IMG/VR virus record: IMGVR_UViG_3300035704_000013
Coordinates: 1 to 41,809 of that record
Reading direction: 5' to 3' (one strand)
Source of the DNA: a virus
Length of the DNA: 41,809 nt
Made by a program: the position numbers and the translations under genes. The notes beneath the pieces were generated by a model. That model was not told the origin of the DNA, made no database searches, and saw nothing but the letters and a program-made list of their open reading frames with translations. Every line of letters starts with the position of its first letter. Within the stretch, counting starts at the first letter, position 1. Positions 506-40,584 of this stretch are shown piece by piece.

Positions 506-555
506 AGGCTTTTGCACAGACGCAATTGGGCTGCCGGATTTTGGGAGAAAATCCA

Positions 556-963
556 GTGGCACCAGAAAACCAGCGATCAGCTGTCAACGTTCAGCGTTCA
601 GCTGAACTCCGAAACCCCACCTCTAACGTCTCCAACACTTGCACCTTCCCCGACCCGGGCGAAGGGCTGCTCTGGCGCCAGGCACGCAAAGCGATTGCGG
701 CCGGTGGCCTGGTGGAAGCGCGCGCGGCCGAGAACCTGACCCGCGGGCCCCAGCAGGAACCGGTGATCACCGTCGGTGACTGGTTCGCCGTCATCGCGAT
801 CGAGCGCGACGGCTTCCGGCGTCTCGGGAAATCGCTGGCTCACGGCATCTACGTGCGGATCGCAGCGATCCGGATCGGCGCGATCGAGTGCGGCGAAGAC
901 GATGCCAGCTGTGATTGCAGCTGGCACGAGAACATGCGCTCGGCAAGGGCAGGTGAAGCATGA
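556..963 (+). CDS. Hypothetical first early protein
   Basis: I do not recognise this protein (135 aa from the GTG at 556). I chose this start because GGGAG lies 8 nt upstream; an in-frame TTG at 526 is the alternative. The middle holds a hydrophobic-charged segment around PVITVGDWFAVIAIERDGF, and the C-terminal part has a CDCSWH cluster. Its stop overlaps the next start (ATGA at 960), so it looks like the head of the early operon. The N-terminal 40 residues are low in structure-forming residues and could be non-coding leader. Confidence 0.45.
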   Translation: MAPENQRSAVNVQRSAELRNPTSNVSNTCTFPDPGEGLLWRQARKAIAAGGLVEARAAENLTRGPQQEPVITVGDWFAVIAIERDGFRRLGKSLAHGIYVRIAAIRIGAIECGEDDASCDCSWHENMRSARAGEA

Positions 964-1325
964 GCGCGTCACCTGCCGTCAGCCCATCTTCCAAAGACAA
1001 CAACTACCTGGTCGTCGATATGAACGAGATGACGACGTCGGCCGGCGACCACGCTCAGCCGATTTATAAGCTGCCGGTCCGCGCGCGCGACGGAGACGTG
1101 TTCGCGATCGCGTTGGGTGCGACCAGCGTTGAGTGCCTGGCGCGCGCGCAGAAGATTGCCGCGGTGGAGGCGATGATTTCGGAGCTTGAGCCGACATGCA
1201 CCGTGCTGAAGACTGTCGCGACGGTGCTCGCGCAGACCGGCAAGATGCGCGCGGCGATGGCGATCGATGACACGTTCACGCGCGTCCTCCGCGTTCTCGG
1301 CCGAGCCAGAGGCGGTGCCGCATGA
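960..1325 (+). CDS. Hypothetical early protein
   Basis: An unrecognised 121-aa protein. A Ser/Pro-rich N-terminus is followed by a mixed alpha/beta part (YKLPVRARDGDVFAIALG) and a helical Ala-rich C-terminus. It overlaps the genes on both sides by four nucleotides (ATGA), which implies translational coupling. Strong G/C at third codon positions supports coding. Confidence 0.7.
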   Translation: MSASPAVSPSSKDNNYLVVDMNEMTTSAGDHAQPIYKLPVRARDGDVFAIALGATSVECLARAQKIAAVEAMISELEPTCTVLKTVATVLAQTGKMRAAMAIDDTFTRVLRVLGRARGGAA

Positions 1326-1609
1326 ACGAGCTCGCTTTCGCCGAAAAGCTGCTGCAGATGGTGCGCAACTATGAGTCCGCGTGCGGCGTGATCTACAAGC
1401 GCGTGCGCGAAGAGACCGGGCCGTTCTCGGTCGCAACGCTGGTGATGGATGCGCGCGTGGACACGGCCTGGACGCTCGGCAATGAGATCGAGAGCGAAAT
1501 CGCGCTGTATCGGATGGAAGTGCCGCCAGCGCCGGCCGAGATCGCCGAGCACGCGATGCCTACGATCGTGACGAAGATGATGTGGCCCGGACCGGGAGGC
1601 GCGCTGTGA
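1322..1609 (+). CDS. Hypothetical early protein
   Basis: An unrecognised 95-aa, mostly helical and acidic protein that starts MNELAFAEKLLQMVRNYES. It overlaps the upstream gene by ATGA and the downstream GTG start at 1606. No Cys motif, signal peptide or membrane segment is seen. Confidence 0.7.
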   Translation: MNELAFAEKLLQMVRNYESACGVIYKRVREETGPFSVATLVMDARVDTAWTLGNEIESEIALYRMEVPPAPAEIAEHAMPTIVTKMMWPGPGGAL

Positions 1610-2130
1610 GCCTGTTCTGTGTGGAGTGCCGTCACCTGGAGTGCACGCCGCGGACGAGCGAGCCCCCGCTGCTGTGCGCGCACTGCGAAGACGGTGTTCC
1701 TTGTCCTGTGACCGCCCGCGAAGCCTTGAGGGCGAACGCGGCTAAACCGAGAGTAACCAATGGGAGAGATTCCGCGGCGGAGGTTGAGAGCATGCCGATC
1801 CAGAAACAACCGTGCGCCACGCCGGGCTGCCCGAATGAATGCCGGGTGGGCAACAAGTATCCGTACTGCACGCCGTGCCAGCAGGCGGGCAAACACAAAA
1901 CGACCGCGCCGGCGGAGACGCTGGCGCGACTAGAGCACGCGAACGGACGCAAGCTGAAAGAAGTACCGGTGCGCATGAAGAAGGCGGCGAAGAGCAACGG
2001 CAACGGCCACGCGAAAGCGAACGGCAATGGGAATGGGCGCAAGGAGGTGCCCCCCCCCCAGCAACGGTTTCGCCACTGTGCGGCTGAGCGAAGAACATAT
2101 CGACCGATTTCTGAGCGCTTTGCCGCTTAA
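1606..2130 (+). CDS. Cys-rich zinc-finger-like protein, frame changes near its end
   Basis: GTG start overlapping the previous stop. Two Cys clusters are visible: FCVECRHLECT...CAHCEDGVPC near the N-terminus and CATPGCPNECRVG...YCTPCQQAG in the middle, both like small zinc-binding modules. A second start at 1792 (ATG with GGAGG 8 nt upstream) could make only the second module. A Lys/Asn/Gly-rich linker follows, then a run of ten C at 2050-2059. The in-frame reading stops at 2130 with an unconvincing Arg-rich tail. The +1 frame after the C run gives a natural-looking tail (TVRLSEEHIDRFLSALPL...) that ends at 2176, overlapping the next gene. The full product is therefore probably made by a frameshift, or the C run is mis-sized. 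Confidence 0.65.
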   Translation: MSLFCVECRHLECTPRTSEPPLLCAHCEDGVPCPVTAREALRANAAKPRVTNGRDSAAEVESMPIQKQPCATPGCPNECRVGNKYPYCTPCQQAGKHKTTAPAETLARLEHANGRKLKEVPVRMKKAAKSNGNGHAKANGNGNGRKEVPPPQQRFRHCAAERRTYRPISERFAA

Positions 2131-2176
2131 CGACAAAGCGCAGCTGATGACCGATTACCTGGGAAGGACGCAGTGA
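2041..2176 (+). other. Candidate +1 ribosomal frameshift site and alternative C-terminus
   Basis: AAGGAGGTG (2041-2049) matches the anti-Shine-Dalgarno consensus perfectly, and ten C follow directly (2050-2059). No start codon lies at usable spacing after it. The +1 frame stays open from the C run to TGA 2174-2176 and encodes about 38 residues of well-behaved sequence whose stop overlaps the GTG of the next gene. Internal Shine-Dalgarno sequences next to slippery runs stimulate frameshifting (prfB +1, dnaX -1), and CCC-C is a known +1 slip site. A homopolymer length error would look the same. Confidence 0.45.
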
Positions 2177-2499
2177 GCGACGACTACACCGAGAAGCCTT
2201 TTGCGCCCTACAAGCTCGACATTGGAAAACTTGTGGGCGCCGAGCGAAGCTTCGAAGTCACGGTGGTGCCGCAGGAGACGATCGCGCGACAGAAGCCGCT
2301 GACCGTCTGCGCCGGCATCGCCGAATCGATGTTCAATTTCGCCGAAGTCATTCCTGGATCGGTGAAGGCGATCGCGTCCGAGTGCGGTCACGAAGTGTGG
2401 ATCGCGCCGAGTGGACAGATGAAGGTCGCCATGGGCTGTCCGACGATTTGCACCGGATGTTTCGTGAACAAGCTCGCCGGCGAGAGCCGGCAGAGGTAA
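2173..2499 (+). CDS. Hypothetical protein with C-terminal Cys/His cluster
   Basis: 108 aa from a GTG that overlaps the end of the shifted upstream frame. The C-terminal half has CGHEVWIAPSGQ...CPTICTGCF, a spacing that could bind one zinc ion. The N-terminal half is a mixed alpha/beta fold I do not recognise. It belongs to the overlapping early operon. Confidence 0.7.
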   Translation: MSDDYTEKPFAPYKLDIGKLVGAERSFEVTVVPQETIARQKPLTVCAGIAESMFNFAEVIPGSVKAIASECGHEVWIAPSGQMKVAMGCPTICTGCFVNKLAGESRQR

Positions 2500-2506
2500 G
2501 TCGCCG

Positions 2507-2653
2507 ATGCGATTTACGAATTCGGTGAGGAAAGGAGGTCGGGAAGATTCGCCAGAGCCATTGAACGGGCCGCGCGCTTCTACGAAGAGGGTCGAGGCGC
2601 GCGTCCCGGCCAATGTTCTTCCTCGCCGGCAACGACAACCTTCGGACCAATGA
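2507..2653 (+). CDS. Micro-ORF 1, 48 aa, Arg/Pro-rich
   Basis: ATG with GAGGT upstream; the reading runs MRFTNSVRKGGREDSPEP... and is strongly basic. It ends with TGA inside ATGA at 2650-2653, where the next micro-ORF starts. Not a recognised family. The main argument is the unbroken chain of ATGA junctions that links it to 2786. Confidence 0.35.
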   Translation: MRFTNSVRKGGREDSPEPLNGPRASTKRVEARVPANVLPRRQRQPSDQ

Positions 2654-2748
2654 AAGGAGGTACCTGTACCGAACACAAAAACAGCATTGAGTCAGTTGAA
2701 CAGCGTGCGTTCGTAGGGGGACTGCGGGCGCACGCAACCCAAGTATGA
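2650..2748 (+). CDS. Micro-ORF 2, 32 aa
   Basis: Starts MKGGTCTEHKNSIESVEQ and ends at 2748, again inside an ATGA junction (2745-2748). The DNA AAAGGAGGT lies at its own start codon, so it may also serve as a ribosome-binding element. No family recognised. Confidence 0.3.
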   Translation: MKGGTCTEHKNSIESVEQRAFVGGLRAHATQV

Positions 2749-2789
2749 CGGAAGCCACACAGCGAGAGACGGGAGATTTTCGGCGATGA
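2745..2789 (+). CDS. Micro-ORF 3, 14-aa leader-like peptide
   Basis: Fourteen codons (MTEATQRETGDFRR) that end in the ATGA at 2786-2789, the start of the next full gene. It may act only to carry ribosomes to that gene by coupled termination and re-initiation. Confidence 0.25.
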   Translation: MTEATQRETGDFRR

Positions 2790-3223
2790 AAGCGACAGAG
2801 ATACCGGCGCGCTACATGAACCTGGGCGCGACGGGCAGTTTGCGAGTGGTGCAGGTGTTCGGCAGCTGGGACGTGCCGTGCGTGCGACATCAGCCGTGGG
2901 CCCGGCACACGGCGAGGGCGATGCTGATCGACGATCGCACCGGCAAAAGCTTTGAGCTGTGCCAGGCGTGCCTGCGAACAGATATCGGCTTCGTTCCTGG
3001 GCCGATCGGCAACGCGACGTACTTCGGCCGAGACCCGGAGCAGTTGCAGAGTGTGGACGCGCTCCGCGCTGTCGAAGAGATCTCGCTTGAGGGGATGCGC
3101 GCCGAGCTGGGCAGTGTGGCGATGATCGCCGCGATGCGCAGGCCTTCGAAGCGACCGGCGATCGGACACGTGACACCGCGCAAGGCGGTGATCGGCAAGA
3201 TCGTGAAGCGGAGGAAGCGGTGA
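2786..3223 (+). CDS. Hypothetical early protein
   Basis: 145 aa, unrecognised. It has scattered Cys (VPCVRHQPWARH; ELCQACLRTDIGF) that could form a zinc site, and a very basic C-terminal tail (KIVKRRKR) that suggests nucleic-acid contact. The start is fixed by the ATGA overlap, and GGGAG lies upstream. The next gene overlaps its stop. Confidence 0.7.
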   Translation: MKATEIPARYMNLGATGSLRVVQVFGSWDVPCVRHQPWARHTARAMLIDDRTGKSFELCQACLRTDIGFVPGPIGNATYFGRDPEQLQSVDALRAVEEISLEGMRAELGSVAMIAAMRRPSKRPAIGHVTPRKAVIGKIVKRRKR

Positions 3224-3480
3224 TCCGCATGCAGACCGGCGGCGCCGTGCTCTGCATTGTGGAGCGCGGCAACATCGATCGACTCCGCGAGGGGAAGCCG
3301 ATGACGATCGATCTCACAGCGCATCCCGGCGCAAAGGAAGTACTGATCTTCTACACGCCGGACCTCCCGTTCGTGCAGCAAGCGCTGACGTCGCTGATGA
3401 GCGCGAGCGGACGTATCTCGGCCGAGCAGTTGGGCCGCGTGATTGAGGAAGCGAGCAAACGAAGCGAGGTGGTCCGATGA
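3220..3480 (+). CDS. Hypothetical early protein
   Basis: 86 aa from GTG; a second start lies at ATG 3229. Beta-rich N-terminal half (GAVLCIVERGNIDRLREGKPMTIDL) and helical C-terminal half. No known motif. Overlaps both neighbours by four nucleotides. Confidence 0.65.
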   Translation: MIRMQTGGAVLCIVERGNIDRLREGKPMTIDLTAHPGAKEVLIFYTPDLPFVQQALTSLMSASGRISAEQLGRVIEEASKRSEVVR

Positions 3481-3662
3481 AGATCTTGGAGTGGCTCTAC
3501 GACCTGATTTTCGGCTGCCGGCATCCGCACGCGGCGCGCTCGCGCGTGTGGACCGAGCACGACAACGACGGCACCGCGCACGACTATCAGACGTGTCTCG
3601 ACTGCGGCAAGCGGCTGGAGTACTCGCTGATCCGGTTTCGGCAGCAGGAAGAACAAGCGTGA
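3477..3662 (+). CDS. Small zinc-ribbon-like protein
   Basis: 61 aa. CRHPH near residue 14 and CLDCGKRLEYS near residue 40 form a CxH...CxxC pattern typical of one-zinc modules found in many phage and acidobacterial small proteins. The N-terminus (MKILEWLYDLIFG) is hydrophobic and amphipathic. The GTG of the HerA-like gene overlaps its stop. Confidence 0.65.
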   Translation: MKILEWLYDLIFGCRHPHAARSRVWTEHDNDGTAHDYQTCLDCGKRLEYSLIRFRQQEEQA

Positions 3663-5416
3663 AGATTACGATCGGCACCAGCACGGACGGTAAGCCCGTC
3701 AGTTTCGACTTGGACAAGTTGCTGCTCACGCGACTGCTGATCCAGGCCAATTCCGGCGCTGGGAAATCGTGGGTGCTGCGCGTGCTCATCGAGCAGCTCT
3801 TCGGACACGTACAGGTCATCGTCATCGATCCCGAGGGCGAGTTCGCCACGCTGCGAGAAAAGTTCGACTTCGTGCTGGTGGGCAAAGAAGGCGCCGATAC
3901 GCCCGCGGACGTCCGCTCGGCCGAACTCCTCGCGCACAAGCTTCTGGAGATCCGCGCCTCGGCCGTTTGCGACCTGTATGAGATGCGGCCCTCCGACCGC
4001 CACAAATGGGTGCACCTGTTTCTGGAAGCAATGATCGACGCGCCCAAGAAGCTGTGGCACCCCGTTGTGGTTGTCGTGGACGAAGCGCAGTTGTTCTGCC
4101 CGGAGAAGGGCGCCGGCGAATCCGAAGCGTCGGAGGCGATGGTGTCACTCACGACGCGCGGCCGTAAGCGCGGCTATTGTGCAGTGTGGGCCACGCAACG
4201 TCTCGCTAACCTGAAGAAGGACGCGACCTCGATGCTGCTCAATCGTCTGGTTGGCGGAACGTTCGAGGATGTCGACATCAAGCGCGCGCTCGATCTGCTG
4301 AGCGTACCCACGGAGAAAAAAGAACGGAGCGCCTTCGCGCTTCAATTGCGCACGCTGGAGCCGGGAATGTTCTATGCGCTCGGGCGCGCGATCGCGAAAG
4401 AGCGGCTGCTATTCAAGTCGGGGAAGGTGCAGACGAGTCACCCGCAGCCAGGCTCTTCAAAGCATGCCGCCGCTCCTCCACCAACGCCTGAAAAGATCCG
4501 CGATCTTCTGCCCAAACTGGCGGACCTGCCACAAACGGCAGAGGAGAAGGCGCGCACCGTCGCCGAGCTGCAGCGCGAACTTCGCGAAGTGAAGACGCAA
4601 TTGCGGGTCGCGGAGAAGGCAAAGCCGGCGGCGCCACAGATCGATCAAGCCGCGACCGCGCGCGAAGTAGAAAAAGCGGTCCGCACGGCACTGGGCGAGC
4701 GCGATAAAAACTGGCTGCGTGCAGTGCGGGACTACCAGCGCGCACTCAATGCTGGTTTCGCCGTAGCTGTGGCGCAAGTCGGTGAAGCGATCGACCAGGT
4801 GAAGTTCGAAACGCCGGCGGAAGCGAACGTCACCGTTTCCGTCGAGAAATTGCAGCGCGCTGCAATTCGTCCCACCACTCGCCGACCGATACAACATCGA
4901 GAGCGTGCGGCGCCGGTAGTCAATAACTCGAACGGCAGTGGCAGCGAGAGCCACGATCTCGGGAAAGGCGAACGCAAGATGCTGGTCGCGATCGCGCAGC
5001 ACGAGGATGGTGCAACGCGGGCGCAGCTCACACAATTAACCGGCTTCAAGCGATCGACGCGCAACGCATACATCCAGCGTCTTTGCGCGGCGGGCCTGGC
5101 GCGGACTGAAGGCACGAATAGTCCAGTGTTCGCCACCGACGAAGGCATCGCCGCTCTCGGTTCGGACTATGAGCCTTTGCCCACCGGCGATGAATTGCGC
5201 GAGTACTGGCTGCGAAAGCTTCCCGACGGCGAACGAAAGACGCTGGAAGTTCTGGCCCAGTGCTATCCCGCTCCATTGCAGCGTGAGGCGGTGAGTGAGT
5301 GCACGGGGTTCGCGCGGTCGACGCGCAACGCGTATATCCAGCGGCTGGTGGCGCGCCGCCTGGTGACGTTGCCGACGAAGGACGAGGTGAAGGTAGCGGA
5401 CGAGTTGTTTGGATAG
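3659..5416 (+). CDS. HerA/DUF87-type P-loop ATPase with two C-terminal winged-helix repeats
   Basis: 585 aa from the GTG at 3659 that overlaps the previous stop. Walker A is ANSGAGKS at about residues 30-37 and Walker B VVVVVDEAQLF with D141-E142. This is the FtsK/HerA superfamily, which forms hexameric rings that move DNA or protein. An arginine-rich segment (TTRGRKRG) and a WATQR sensor-like motif follow. After a Pro-rich linker and a coiled coil come two copies of a roughly 65-aa winged helix, each with the string STRNAYIQRL, at about 445-510 and 525-580. Possible roles are DNA handling in replication or recombination, or packaging support. It lies in the early operon rather than beside the terminase. 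The ATPase call is firm and the role is inferred. Confidence 0.85.
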   Translation: MKITIGTSTDGKPVSFDLDKLLLTRLLIQANSGAGKSWVLRVLIEQLFGHVQVIVIDPEGEFATLREKFDFVLVGKEGADTPADVRSAELLAHKLLEIRASAVCDLYEMRPSDRHKWVHLFLEAMIDAPKKLWHPVVVVVDEAQLFCPEKGAGESEASEAMVSLTTRGRKRGYCAVWATQRLANLKKDATSMLLNRLVGGTFEDVDIKRALDLLSVPTEKKERSAFALQLRTLEPGMFYALGRAIAKERLLFKSGKVQTSHPQPGSSKHAAAPPPTPEKIRDLLPKLADLPQTAEEKARTVAELQRELREVKTQLRVAEKAKPAAPQIDQAATAREVEKAVRTALGERDKNWLRAVRDYQRALNAGFAVAVAQVGEAIDQVKFETPAEANVTVSVEKLQRAAIRPTTRRPIQHRERAAPVVNNSNGSGSESHDLGKGERKMLVAIAQHEDGATRAQLTQLTGFKRSTRNAYIQRLCAAGLARTEGTNSPVFATDEGIAALGSDYEPLPTGDELREYWLRKLPDGERKTLEVLAQCYPAPLQREAVSECTGFARSTRNAYIQRLVARRLVTLPTKDEVKVADELFG

Positions 5417-5428
5417 GAGCGCAGATAG

Positions 5429-5641
5429 ATGGCGTATTCGCGGTTCACAACAGCGGCTCCCAAGCACACGACTCCGCGGCAGGTGCGCACGGTACGCGGA
5501 GCGAAGCAGGTGTGGTTCTACATGAACGACGAGAGTATCGATGTCTATGTTCGGCCGGAAGAAACCGGCCACAACGGCCCAGGCGCTGCTTCGATCTGGT
5601 TTCGGATCTGGCTGCGTGACCTGGTGCGGAGGGTGAAGTGA
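5429..5641 (+). CDS. Hypothetical small protein
   Basis: 70 aa, starts MAYSRFTTAAPKHTTPRQ. The central KQVWFYMNDESIDVYVRPE looks beta-stranded and the C-terminus is amphipathic (FRIWLRDLVRRVK). AGGAG lies about 10 nt upstream of the ATG. The next GTG overlaps its stop. Unrecognised. Confidence 0.6.
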   Translation: MAYSRFTTAAPKHTTPRQVRTVRGAKQVWFYMNDESIDVYVRPEETGHNGPGAASIWFRIWLRDLVRRVK

Positions 5642-5955
5642 AGAAGCAGCGCGTTTCTTATCGCCAGGGCGACGTACTGATTCGGCGTATCGACAGCCTG
5701 CCGAAGCAAAAGGCTGTGAAGCGCACCAGCGGTGTGCTGGTGGAAGGTGAGAGCACGGGACATGCACATCGCGTTGCCGAGCTCGAGAAGGCGGAGGTGC
5801 TCGAAATCCAAAACGGCCTATATCTCCACGTCGGCGAAGAAGGCGTGCGGATCGTCCACGAAGAACACGGCGACATCACCCTTCCACCCGGCGACTACGA
5901 GGTCATTCGCCAACGCGAGTACTCCCCGGAGGCGATCCGCAATGTTGCCGACTAG
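5638..5955 (+). CDS. Conserved phage-type protein with GHAHR and HGDITLPPGDYEV motifs
   Basis: 105 aa from GTG. YRQGDVLIRRID, GESTGHAHRVAE, EEGVRIVHEEHGDITLPPGDY and VIRQREYSPEAI form a compact beta-barrel-like pattern with conserved His residues, reminiscent of small cupin-like proteins. From memory, this family often sits beside DUF6745 proteins, as here; the biochemical role is unknown to me. It overlaps the next gene by 14 nt. Confidence 0.75.
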   Translation: MKKQRVSYRQGDVLIRRIDSLPKQKAVKRTSGVLVEGESTGHAHRVAELEKAEVLEIQNGLYLHVGEEGVRIVHEEHGDITLPPGDYEVIRQREYSPEAIRNVAD

Positions 5956-7372
5956 CACGGTGCTGCTCCAGCGGTACACCGAGGCCTGCAATTATCCAGG
6001 CTCGTTGGACGAGGCGAGAGTCGAGGAGGCTCTCGCCCGTTACCTGGCCGTGTTCGGCATCAAGCGCCAGATCCGAAGATTGCGCGCCGGCTGGACGATT
6101 GACAGCGAGCCGTCATTGCGCAAGTACGTCGACGACGTACTCAATGAGTTCGCGAAACGCAATCCATCGGACGCGAGGGACGCGATGGCCGCGAGGGACG
6201 CGAGGGACGCGATGGCCGCGAGGGACGCGAGGGACGCGAGGGACGCGATGGCCGCGATGGCCGCGATGGCCGCGAGGGACGCGATGGCCGCGAGGGACGC
6301 GATGGCCGCGAGGGACGCGATGGCCGCGAGGGACGCGATGGCCGCGAGGGACGCGATGGCCGCGATGGCCGCGAGGGACGCGATGGCCGCGAGGGACGCG
6401 ATGGCCGCGAGGGACGCGATGGCCGCGAGGGACGCGATGGCCGCGATGGACGCGATGGACGCGATGGCCGCGATGGACGCGAGGGACGCGAGGGACGCGA
6501 TGGCCGCGAGGGACGCGATGGCCGCGATGGCCGCGAGGGACGCGAGGGACGCGAGGGACGCGATGGACGCGATGGCCGCGATGGACGCGAGGGCCGCGAT
6601 GGACGCGACGGACGCGATGGACGCGAGGGCCGCGAGGGACGCGATGGCCGCGATGGACGCGACGGACGCGATGGCCGCGATTAGTTCCCTACACCGATTC
6701 GCGCAATGGTGTTTGCAGAGCACCGGCTATTGGGGCTGGTACTGGCGCTTCGAAATGTCGGTGATGGCCGCGTTTCACATCGGCGCCGTGCAGCTGGGAC
6801 GCGAGGAAGTGAAGAAGTGGGCGCTGCCTTGTTACGAAGCTTTCCTGGCCGGCTGCTGGTTCCTGCATTGGACCGAAGACACGCTCTATTGGGTCGCCAA
6901 GCCTACCGTGCACGTGGAGCGGCTTGAGAACGGACGGCGCCTCCACAATGACAAGGGCGCCGCGGTCGAATCTGACGTCGAGAACCTCTACTTCTGGCAC
7001 GGGGTGCTGGTGCCGGCATACGCCGTTGTCCGGCCCGATTGGATCACGGTGAAAGAGATCCAGGCTGAGGAGAACGTCGAAGTCCGCCGCGTGCTGATGG
7101 AGCGATACGGTCTCGGTCGGTACCTGGAGGACAGCGGCGCGAAAAAGATCCACGCCGACGAGCTCGGCGAACTTTACCGCACCGACATCCCCGGCGACGA
7201 ACCGCTGGTGATGGTGAAGGTGATGAACTCCACGCCGGAACCGGACGGATCGTTTAAGCCGTACTTCCTGCGAGTGCCTCCAGCAATCGCACGAGCGCGC
7301 GACGCCGTGGCCTGGACGTTCGGCTACACGGATTCACGGGCCTACATGAAGGGCCTCGAGCAGCAGACGTAA
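5942..7372 (+). CDS. DUF6745-like protein with a 57-unit tripeptide repeat
   Basis: 476 aa from the ATG at 5942. Residues 1-76 form a helical N-terminal domain. Residues 77-247 are 57 tandem [D/A]-A-[M/R] tripeptides. The C-terminal part (FAQWCLQSTGYWGWYWRFE..., LYFWHGVLVPAYAV, AEENVEVRRVLMERYG, PGDEPLVMVKVMNSTPEPDGS) matches what I know of DUF6745, a family of unknown function in which the C-terminal block is preceded by variable repeats. The repeat could be a long helix or a phase-variable length spacer. A perfect terminator follows, so this is the last gene of the early operon. Confidence 0.75.
   Translation: MLPTSTVLLQRYTEACNYPGSLDEARVEEALARYLAVFGIKRQIRRLRAGWTIDSEPSLRKYVDDVLNEFAKRNPSDARDAMAARDARDAMAARDARDARDAMAAMAAMAARDAMAARDAMAARDAMAARDAMAARDAMAAMAARDAMAARDAMAARDAMAARDAMAAMDAMDAMAAMDARDARDAMAARDAMAAMAARDARDARDAMDAMAAMDARAAMDATDAMDARAARDAMAAMDATDAMAAISSLHRFAQWCLQSTGYWGWYWRFEMSVMAAFHIGAVQLGREEVKKWALPCYEAFLAGCWFLHWTEDTLYWVAKPTVHVERLENGRRLHNDKGAAVESDVENLYFWHGVLVPAYAVVRPDWITVKEIQAEENVEVRRVLMERYGLGRYLEDSGAKKIHADELGELYRTDIPGDEPLVMVKVMNSTPEPDGSFKPYFLRVPPAIARARDAVAWTFGYTDSRAYMKGLEQQT
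6170..6682 (+). repeat. 57 tandem copies of a 9-bp unit, G(A/C)CGCGA(G/T)G
   Basis: 513 bp with no interruption and no length change, all in frame. The unit varies at essentially two positions: A/C in codon 1 (Asp or Ala) and G/T in codon 3 (Arg or Met). There are two ACG (Thr) variants, and the last unit ends ATT. A common higher-order pattern is the 18-bp alternation DAM-AAR. Confidence 0.97.
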
Positions 7373-7448: not shown

Positions 7449-7526
7449 ATGGGTCATTGGCTTTTAGATGACACACTTTTCGCGCCTGCACAAGTGGCGA
7501 TGCGGCGCGCGGAGCACCAATCATGA
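7449..7526 (+). CDS. 25-aa leader peptide before the replication gene
   Basis: MGHWLLDDTLFAPAQVAMRR... with AAGGGAG about 11 nt upstream. Its stop overlaps the ATG of the replication gene (ATGA at 7523-7526). The main gene has no clear ribosome site of its own, so this peptide may drive its translation by coupling. Confidence 0.45.
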   Translation: MGHWLLDDTLFAPAQVAMRRAEHQS

Positions 7527-8740
7527 GCGCCGGCGTGGTGCCGGTACGAACGGCGGCGGCAACCCAGAGGCTCTCTCGCTTCGCAGCGGTCCCGGTGGAG
7601 GTGATCAAACGATTCGGCCCGCTGATTGGCTCGCACGGGCTGACACTGCTTCTGCTGCTCAGCGCAGAAGCGAACAACGACACTGACATCGTGGTGTTTC
7701 GCTCGGCCGATATCGGCGCGCCGATGGGCATGGGCAAACGCAATGTAAACAAAACCCTGTTGCAGTGGGAGCGGAACGCCGAGATCCACGGAAAGATGTA
7801 CCAGGTAGTGGCGCTGCCCCGCGGCTACAGCCAAGCAGATGGCTGGCGAGCCTACCGGCTGCTGATGCGCCGAGATCCGGCGGCAGAAAAACTCCCGCCC
7901 CAGCCCGTGACAAGTGGGAACCGCAGTTCCCACCTTACCGGGAACTATAGTTCCCACCAAACAGCGCAGGCGAGCACTGCAGTTCCCAGACATGGGAACC
8001 AGAGTGCCCGCACAATAAGGAACTCTAGACTCAATCTAGACTCAGAAGCACCTATCCCCCCTTCCCCCCTTCCAAACCCAGCGAGCCAGACTCCGGGCGA
8101 GATCCGAAAACCCGGTGGACTGGCCCCCCCACCCCCAGAGGCGGTGCCCTGCGAAGACTCGCGACATGCGCGGCTGGAGCGCTGGATCGTGTTCCGCTGG
8201 GAGGAGGCGAATGCGCCGGAAAAAATGCCCTGGGCGGACAAGCAGGACATGCGCGTGCAGCTCGGCCATTCGCTGAAGGGTGCCTTCGCCGACCGGCGGG
8301 TGTGGGACGAGGACACGCTGAAACGCTGCGTGGAGAACCGTTTTGCCAGCGATCTCGGGCCGAAGCGCCGCGAGCCGCCGGCGCGCTGGATCTCGCGGCT
8401 GTGGGAATACCGCGACGGTCCCCTCGATGAGTACCGCAAGCTGAAATCGATCGGAGGTGAACGTGGCGACACAACCGAACGACGCACGGGCGAACGAACG
8501 GCTGGAACTGGAGCACTGCGAAACAACGCAACTGTCGCAAGAACAGTTAGCAATTTCCATCAGACCGCAGCAGCGCTTCAATTCCTTGCAAACGAGAGAG
8601 CAAACGCAGGACGCAGTGACCGGGGCGATGTTTCGCCTGGCGAACCTGGTGAACGCCACGATCGAAACCGGCCGCATGGTGGCAACGGCACAAGCGCTCG
8701 AGGACATGCCGGCGCGCGCGCTGGAGTTGGGGTTCCTTGA
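7523..8740 (+). CDS. Phage replication-initiator-like protein
   Basis: Open frame of 405 codons. Residues 20-115 resemble a winged-helix DNA-binding domain (VPVEVIKRFGPLIGSHGLTLLLLL, RSADIGAPMGMGKRNVNKTLLQWERN), a layout shared with lambda O and other initiators. A low-complexity linker (GNRSSHLTGNYSSH) follows, and its DNA holds the candidate origin. A second helical domain (ERWIVFRWEEANAPEKMPWADKQDM...WISRLWEYRDGPLDEYRK) comes next. From about 8460 the frame overlaps the next gene by 278 nt and the tail becomes Arg/Gly-rich and unnatural, so the true stop may have been lost. No helicase motif is seen. The initiator role is inferred from architecture and context. Confidence 0.65.
   Translation: MSAGVVPVRTAAATQRLSRFAAVPVEVIKRFGPLIGSHGLTLLLLLSAEANNDTDIVVFRSADIGAPMGMGKRNVNKTLLQWERNAEIHGKMYQVVALPRGYSQADGWRAYRLLMRRDPAAEKLPPQPVTSGNRSSHLTGNYSSHQTAQASTAVPRHGNQSARTIRNSRLNLDSEAPIPPSPLPNPASQTPGEIRKPGGLAPPPPEAVPCEDSRHARLERWIVFRWEEANAPEKMPWADKQDMRVQLGHSLKGAFADRRVWDEDTLKRCVENRFASDLGPKRREPPARWISRLWEYRDGPLDEYRKLKSIGGERGDTTERRTGERTAGTGALRNNATVARTVSNFHQTAAALQFLANERANAGRSDRGDVSPGEPGERHDRNRPHGGNGTSARGHAGARAGVGVP
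7914..8044. other. Candidate replication origin: three GGGAAC/GTTCCC palindromes and a direct repeat
   Basis: Palindrome 1: GTGGGAAC-CGCA-GTTCCCAC (7914-7933). Palindrome 2: GGGAAC-TATA-GTTCCC (7940-7955). Palindrome 3, opposite order: GTTCCCA-GACA-TGGGAAC (7982-7999), nested within GCACT...AGTGC. Each has a 4-nt spacer. An AT-richer stretch follows with TCTAGACTCA repeated at 8024-8033 and 8035-8044. The lambda origin likewise lies within gene O as repeated initiator sites beside an AT-rich element. An autoregulatory operator is the alternative. Confidence 0.55.
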
Positions 8741-39073: not shown

Positions 39074-39108
39074 GCTTGCCCCGCTTTTCTGGGAGACGGG
39101 CGGGAACT

Positions 39109-40236
39109 ATGGTTCCAGATCAACCACAAGGGCCACCGGTCCAACTGCAACACTCACTCGGGCACATCGATTGCCCGGCCTGCAACGCCGCGCGCGATCG
39201 CATCCTTGCGCCCACCGCGTTCGCCAAGTTGAAATTCAAACAAGCCGCGCCCACCTGGTTGGCCGAACACGGGCGCGAGATCTCCGCGAAGACTTATCGC
39301 GATTACGAGTACTACCTGCGCGGCCTGACCCGGTGGTTCGGCGAGCTCACGCTCGATGGCATCCATATCGGGCACATCGAGAGCTATCAGGAGTGGCGCC
39401 AGCATCCGCACCCGGAATTCAAACTCAAGGGCGCGAAGGCCTCGTGCATTAATCACGAGATCAGCACGCTCGCCCAGGTGCTGGCACGCTCGGGACTCTG
39501 GGCCGAACTGAAGAAGCTCTACAAGCCTTTGACACTGGCGAAGGCGCGCGTGGGCAAGGCCCTCGAGATGAACGAGGAGGAGCGGCTATGGAAGGTGGCC
39601 GAGATGTCGCCGCGGTGGAAGGTGGCCTACTGGGCTTCCCTGCTCTCGGCGAAGACGACGACGGACGCGAGCGAGATCCGCCACCTGCACGTCAACGAGG
39701 TGGACCTGCTGCGCAACACGATCTCGATCCGCGAGGGCACGAAGAACAACTTCCGCATGCGCGAAGTGCCGCTGAATGCCAAAGCGCGCTGGGCAATGAT
39801 GCAGATCGTGGAGCGATACTATCGCGAATGCCGCCGGCACAAAGTGGAACCCAGCGATGAGCACTACCTGCTGTTCGCGCGCGCCAAAGCCGGTTCGGGA
39901 CGCAGGAAGGGACCGCCGCAGTTCGACAAGCCGATGAGTTCATGGCGCACCGCCTGGCGCTCGATCCGCAAGAAGGCCGGCCTGCCGAAGTTCCGCTTCA
40001 AGGACCTGCGCCACCACGCGATCACCACCATGCTGGAGAACCCGGAGATCAGCGAGGAGACGGTGAAGAAAGTCGCCGGGCAGGTGTCGCAGAAGATCCT
40101 CGATACGTACTCACACATCCGCATCGAGGCGAAGCGTGAAGCCGTGGCCACACTCGAAAAGAAGCGGCGGAAACCTGTGGAGACGGATGAGCAAAACGGC
40201 GGCGAAACTCCAACTTCGGTGAAGTGGAAGCAATAG
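39109..40236 (+). CDS. int: Phage integrase (tyrosine recombinase) with an altered Arg-I motif
   Basis: 375 aa from ATG 39109, about 29 nt after the predicted transcription start; a TTG at 39076 would precede that start. N-terminal CPACNAARDRIL and the helical arm/core-binding part (LAEHGREISAKTYRDYEYYLRGLTRWFGELTL) lead to the catalytic domain. Motifs: KTTTDASEIRHLHVNEVDL where the usual GxRxxE has Asp at the Arg-I position; KNNFRMREVPL (beta-strand Lys); FKDLRHHAITTMLENP (Arg II); AGQVSQKILDTYSHI, where GH is GQ; and Tyr in DTYSHI as nucleophile. It is next to attR, so it is the likely integrase for tRNA-Arg. From memory, related acidobacterial recombinases also lack the usual Arg-I context. 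Confidence 0.9.
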   Translation: MVPDQPQGPPVQLQHSLGHIDCPACNAARDRILAPTAFAKLKFKQAAPTWLAEHGREISAKTYRDYEYYLRGLTRWFGELTLDGIHIGHIESYQEWRQHPHPEFKLKGAKASCINHEISTLAQVLARSGLWAELKKLYKPLTLAKARVGKALEMNEEERLWKVAEMSPRWKVAYWASLLSAKTTTDASEIRHLHVNEVDLLRNTISIREGTKNNFRMREVPLNAKARWAMMQIVERYYRECRRHKVEPSDEHYLLFARAKAGSGRRKGPPQFDKPMSSWRTAWRSIRKKAGLPKFRFKDLRHHAITTMLENPEISEETVKKVAGQVSQKILDTYSHIRIEAKREAVATLEKKRRKPVETDEQNGGETPTSVKWKQ

Positions 40237-40506: not shown

Positions 40507-40552
40507 TGGCAGGCGCGGCAGGATTCGAACCTGCGACCCTCTGCTTAGAAGG
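40507..40552 (-). repeat. attR core within tRNA-Arg
   Basis: Identical over 46 bp to 374-419; differs at the bases on both sides. It covers the tRNA from the anticodon arm to the encoded CCA. Confidence 0.95.
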
Positions 40553-40584
40553 CAGATGCTCTAGTCCAACTGAGCTACGCGCCC
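40507..40584 (-). tRNA. tRNA-Arg(UCU)
   Basis: 78 nt on the minus strand. Acceptor GGGCGCG/CGCGCCT, D arm GCTC/GAGC, anticodon loop CTTCTAA with TCT, T arm GCAGG-TTCGAAT-CCTGC and encoded CCA. A -10-like TACAAT lies upstream at 40601-40596. The 3' 46 bases belong to the att core and came from the phage, which restores a complete gene after integration. Confidence 0.97.

Follow-up and report, generated by a model that had tools for sequence, protein, structure and literature searches.

The window, the whole stretch of DNA analysed here, spans the 41,809 bases of a virus record and carries a prophage. The prophage is bounded by a tRNA-Arg (TCT) on the minus strand (40507-40584) and by a partial repeat of this tRNA at 374-423, the left attachment-site copy, which is identical to 40507-40556 at 49 of 50 positions; from the tRNA and the repeat comparison, the tRNA-Arg is the probable integration target. 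An ORF at 39076-40236 is integrase-like (a name given by sequence and position, not by family search). The host probably belongs to the Acidobacteria, as the sole genome relative found for the prophage's HerA-like ATPase (DUF87) sits in an Acidobacteria MAG (53% identity). The ORF 5732-7372 contains an 18-bp tandem repeat of about 29 copies (6169-6680) that encodes runs of an RDAMAA-like unit; a similar-looking repeat, read as RGLRWMRG, is present in the related viral locus L008 (1-735).

Close to the left end of the prophage, positions 1606-2176 of the plus strand hold one gene whose frame changes at a run of C. Its 5' part (1606-2049) starts with GTG at 1606 in the zero frame and encodes a Cys-rich N-terminal motif (CVEC...LCAHCEDGVPCP), a second motif CATPGC...CTPC and an NG-rich linker that ends in GRKEV. 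The last three of these residues, K-E-V, are encoded by the SD-like 9-mer AAGGAGGTG (2041-2049), and this is followed directly by exactly ten C (2050-2059), so that the arrangement given in the sequence-only reading, a perfect Shine-Dalgarno sequence before ten C at a frame change, is indeed there. Past the C run the zero frame continues for 23 codons to a stop at 2130 (tail QQRFRHCAAERRTYRPISERFAA plus stop, 2059-2130), and the +1 frame is open for 38 codons to a stop at 2176 (tail SNGFATVRLSEEHIDRFLSALPLNDKAQLMTDYLGRTQ plus stop, 2060-2176). The +1-frame stop shares the four bases GTGA with the GTG start of the next gene (2173-2499, plus strand), which encodes 108 amino acids and has no family match. 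No start codon is present in the +1 frame at normal SD spacing, and a separate internal start behind the SD was therefore rejected.

The joined product is rich in Cys and has a zinc-finger-like look, with a linker of NG and proline and, at its C-terminus, a short module. Neither this gene nor its neighbours at 960, 1322 and 2173 gave a useful Pfam or PHROGs score; judging from the Cys motifs, the product may bind zinc and act as a small accessory or regulatory factor in the left-end gene cluster. Further downstream, AAAGGAGGT occurs twice (AGGAGG at 2533 and 2655) in a stretch without clear genes (2500-2785).

The two possible tails differ clearly in codon usage. With a score that had 21 ORFs of the window as its training set, the mean per codon is +0.49 for the zero frame immediately before the C run; past the run it is +0.25 in the +1 frame but -0.44 in the zero frame. 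For comparison, reference windows of 38 codons have a 5-95% range of 0.01 to 0.71 in the true frame and a 95% point of at most -0.16 off frame. The junctions agree with this: the stop of the +1 frame gives a GTGA overlap with the next gene that matches the xTGA four-base overlaps found at 7 of 10 other junctions between ORFs judged real (526 to 5955), whereas the zero-frame stop leaves 42 nt.

Homology points in the same direction. A phylum search of 396 genomes with the joined protein as query returned 13 matches in 12 genomes (L037 to L049, E <= 0.01); L039 was inspected, L040, L041, L042 and L046 were looked at by motif script and L037, L038, L043, L044, L045, L048 and L049 were left unread. 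L047 (E 0.009) alone was kept, because of its layout: it has the same order of parts as 1606-2176, in a single open frame of 309 amino acids, namely an N-terminal motif ending in CVWCADGLPCP, CATPGC...CREC, an NG-rich linker and a C-terminus that ends in ...ESRVDLLLAAIPAEDKAKMLSAWLAGTL at the stop. Its linker contains neither a C run nor an SD. As an E value of 0.009 is weak on its own, the parts were compared separately. The +1 tail aligns to the C-terminus of L047 with a score of 57, which was matched by none of 20,000 shuffles, whereas the zero-frame tail reaches a score of 10, matched by 19,328 of 20,000. For the N-terminal motif, which falls outside the stretch of the query that had retrieved L047 (residues 65-187), 3 of 20,000 shuffles were as good against L047 and none of 20,000 against L008. 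In a single pair comparison, BLASTP of the joined protein against L047 gave an E value of 2e-8. All these similarity figures for L047 are somewhat generous, because L047 was chosen post hoc and the joined protein was the search query.

L047 lies about 460 bases past an integrase-like ORF and has phage-like genes nearby (names from sequence reading), and for this reason it appears to lie in a prophage remnant; it is a distant relative, from an Acidobacteria-phylum genome. We also noticed that a Cys motif (CVxC...LCxxCEDGxPC or near) opens otherwise different proteins in L008 (1452-1571), in L047 (1099-1230) and in the window (1618-1707); the window copy has no Pfam or PHROGs match at cut-off.

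Codon usage and homology thus uphold two statements of the sequence-only reading: that the zero frame soon stops after a poor tail, with its stop at 2130 and no match to the tail of L047, and that the +1 frame provides the natural tail, which overlaps the next start in operon style.

Other searches for relatives added little. The joined protein had no direct relative in viral contigs or genome contigs; among the 33 viral records from which the first loci came, there was one weak match only, to the N-terminal part, in the record of L008, and no relative was found among six terminase relatives. For the tail, a scripted scan of the related loci found none. The neighbour gene at 2173 gave two short Cys-motif matches only, and no DNA match came from the phages collection. 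Of the genomes searched with the profile, 9 of 399 matched at the level of class, 3 of 397 at that of order, 2 of 300 at that of family and 1 of 396 at that of phylum (overlapping samples; the class search was run at E 0.01, the other three at 0.001): the genome of L047 was matched every time and no second relative with the full layout was found. Besides L047, the inspected matches did not share the layout; L079 has one Cys motif in common only and L078 has none. The L047 protein and the profile found nothing in viral contigs.

The C tract itself is unusual. It is the only run of at least 8 identical bases in the 41,809 bases of the window, the second longest being a C7 at 8124. Runs of C3 to C7 occur 274, 49, 10, 3 and 1 times, a drop of about 3- to 5-fold per added base; extrapolating this trend gives an expectation of well under one C10. 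In the related viral loci (n=59; 737,019 bases, some overlapping) there are no C runs and three G runs of at least 8; a G9 run (L053:10249) and a G11 run (L057:8819) from related viral contigs lie inside or between open frames. Among the proline codons of this phage, CCC is a minor one (84 of 469), and three CCC in a row therefore point to tract expansion, not codon choice. The SD is less striking: under the phage's codon usage, K-E-V would be written as AAGGAGGTG with a probability of about 0.25, so that codon preference partly explains it. About 0.8% of the coding positions (65 of 8,406) have an SD match of at least 6 bases within 15 nt upstream, a figure to be read with the SD having been singled out post hoc; the 9-mer within 15 nt is found at none of 8,406 other coding positions.

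The sequence-only reading had proposed programmed +1 frameshifting at this site, with an internal SD as in prfB and a slip on CCC-C. In such a mechanism the internal SD would pair with 16S rRNA, the ribosome would pause on Pro-Pro-Pro and the tRNA-Pro would leave its CCC for the CCC that overlaps it in the +1 frame, resulting in a short and a long product. A perfect 9-mer SD ahead of a proline-CCC run suits the mechanics of +1 slippage. Its AGGAGG (2042-2047) ends two bases ahead of the first CCC, near the three bases that are given for prfB (PMC12421855). CCC-C is slippery in E. coli, with up to 1% +1 shifts beside a start codon (PMC4519876), and +1 shifts on CCC are used by Listeria phages (PMC5009743). 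The likeness to prfB is partial, however: both have an internal SD that adjoins a +1-slippery pyrimidine site, but prfB has CTTT and a TGA in the A site, and here there is a CCC run with no stop codon in the A site and no conservation in the single relative. The zero frame continues with CCC, CCC, CAG and the first stop is the TAA at 2128-2130, 26 codons on. The cps and tsh genes of Listeria phage PSA would be another parallel, since there too a phage gene shifts to the +1 frame on proline CCC (here a candidate shift); in PSA, however, a stop codon or a pseudoknot follows the site (PMC5009743), whereas the site at 2050-2059 has no following stop and no standout fold, and the 1606-2176 gene has no structural-protein match. 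Folds of the downstream RNA were not clearly better than chance in comparison with shuffles (z -1.18 and -0.73, for folds free of pseudoknots), and the zero-frame tail, which would terminate the short product, does not look like coding sequence. The motif of SD plus nine C did not recur in viral contigs, in a scan from which near-identical records may be absent. The sequence-only reading had suggested comparing homologous phages for conservation of the SD, the C run and both frames, and had named homologues with one open frame and no C run as an outcome that would refute it; L047, the only relative found with the full layout, is of this kind and has no SD at the equivalent place either. Taken together, these data speak against the proposal, and we consider programmed +1 frameshifting at the C10 unlikely.

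A long C tract within a reading frame could also be a contingency locus, where replication slippage shifts the tract length, so that within the population the full-length prophage protein is switched between on and off. The C10 resembles such loci: it is well above background, longer than the seven identical bases that we used as the lower limit for a candidate tract, and it lies inside a reading frame right at the frame change; phase variation is known to make use of poly-C and poly-G tracts that lie in reading frames (PMC3711429). Phase-variable genes of this type vary in tract length, but here there is a single prophage with one known length: no tract-length variants were seen, and a second copy of the C-run motif was not found in viral contigs (near-identical records may be absent from those scans as well). 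The tract is not conserved in L047, and the protein lacks a match to a surface or modification-type family, which leaves poly-C phase variation distinctly unlikely. Transcriptional slippage, in which RNA polymerase would produce mRNAs of mixed length on the C run, is very improbable: runs of at least 8 are typical slippage sites, but the usual ones described in the same source (PMC3711429) are runs of A or T, and L047 again lacks the run.

The frame break at the C10 is best explained by an ordinary one-base slip in a homopolymeric C tract, either in vitro or in the cell; we put the probability of this reading at roughly three in four. The 1606-2176 gene would then have been thrown out of frame by one base in this contig, and a C tract of another length would give a single open frame. 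The indel could have arisen in vitro (PCR, sequencing or assembly) or could be an allele that slipped in vivo on a hypermutable tract; the chances of an artefact and of a real slipped allele are about even. Slippage as the cause is what we infer from the features that are present, a break at a homopolymer and an intact single-frame relative; these are shared with known slippage indels, whether from sequencing and PCR errors or from slipped-strand mutation. No other homopolymer in the window is as long, with a single run of ten in 41.8 kb, and a break at this place is readily explained in this way. If the C10 allele is real, +1 slippage on CCC-C may still yield full-length protein at a low level, and such rescue can be likened to the 'compensatory' frameshifting described in PMC5009743.

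As a baseline, genes of the window were compared with related viral loci, and the 80 homologous hits, which cover 30,574 amino acids, contained one frame break. This is a terminase relative in L056 (10019-11517) that lies in two frames with the break at about 10660; it has no long homopolymer, and frame breaks in such contigs are therefore not all of the homopolymer kind. Within the window, the ORF 7523-8740 loses its coding look at about 8456 (score -0.23 in the part that follows, up to 8740, within 8401-8740) and the frame from GTG 8457 is coding-like (0.27); there is no homopolymer at this position, and the possible frame change has no relatives among the related loci.

That the C10 is both real and functional is in our view rather doubtful. 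It would then determine how much of the Cys-rich protein, encoded close to the prophage's left end, is made in short and how much in long form, either through +1 slippage on CCC-C that is stimulated by the SD and needs no stop codon, or as a poly-C on/off switch. If the C run is an ordinary slip, automatic annotation shortens this prophage gene and its C-terminal module goes unseen. A functional C run would instead be either a homopolymer switch in a prophage or a +1 site that consists of an SD plus a proline run and lacks a stop codon.
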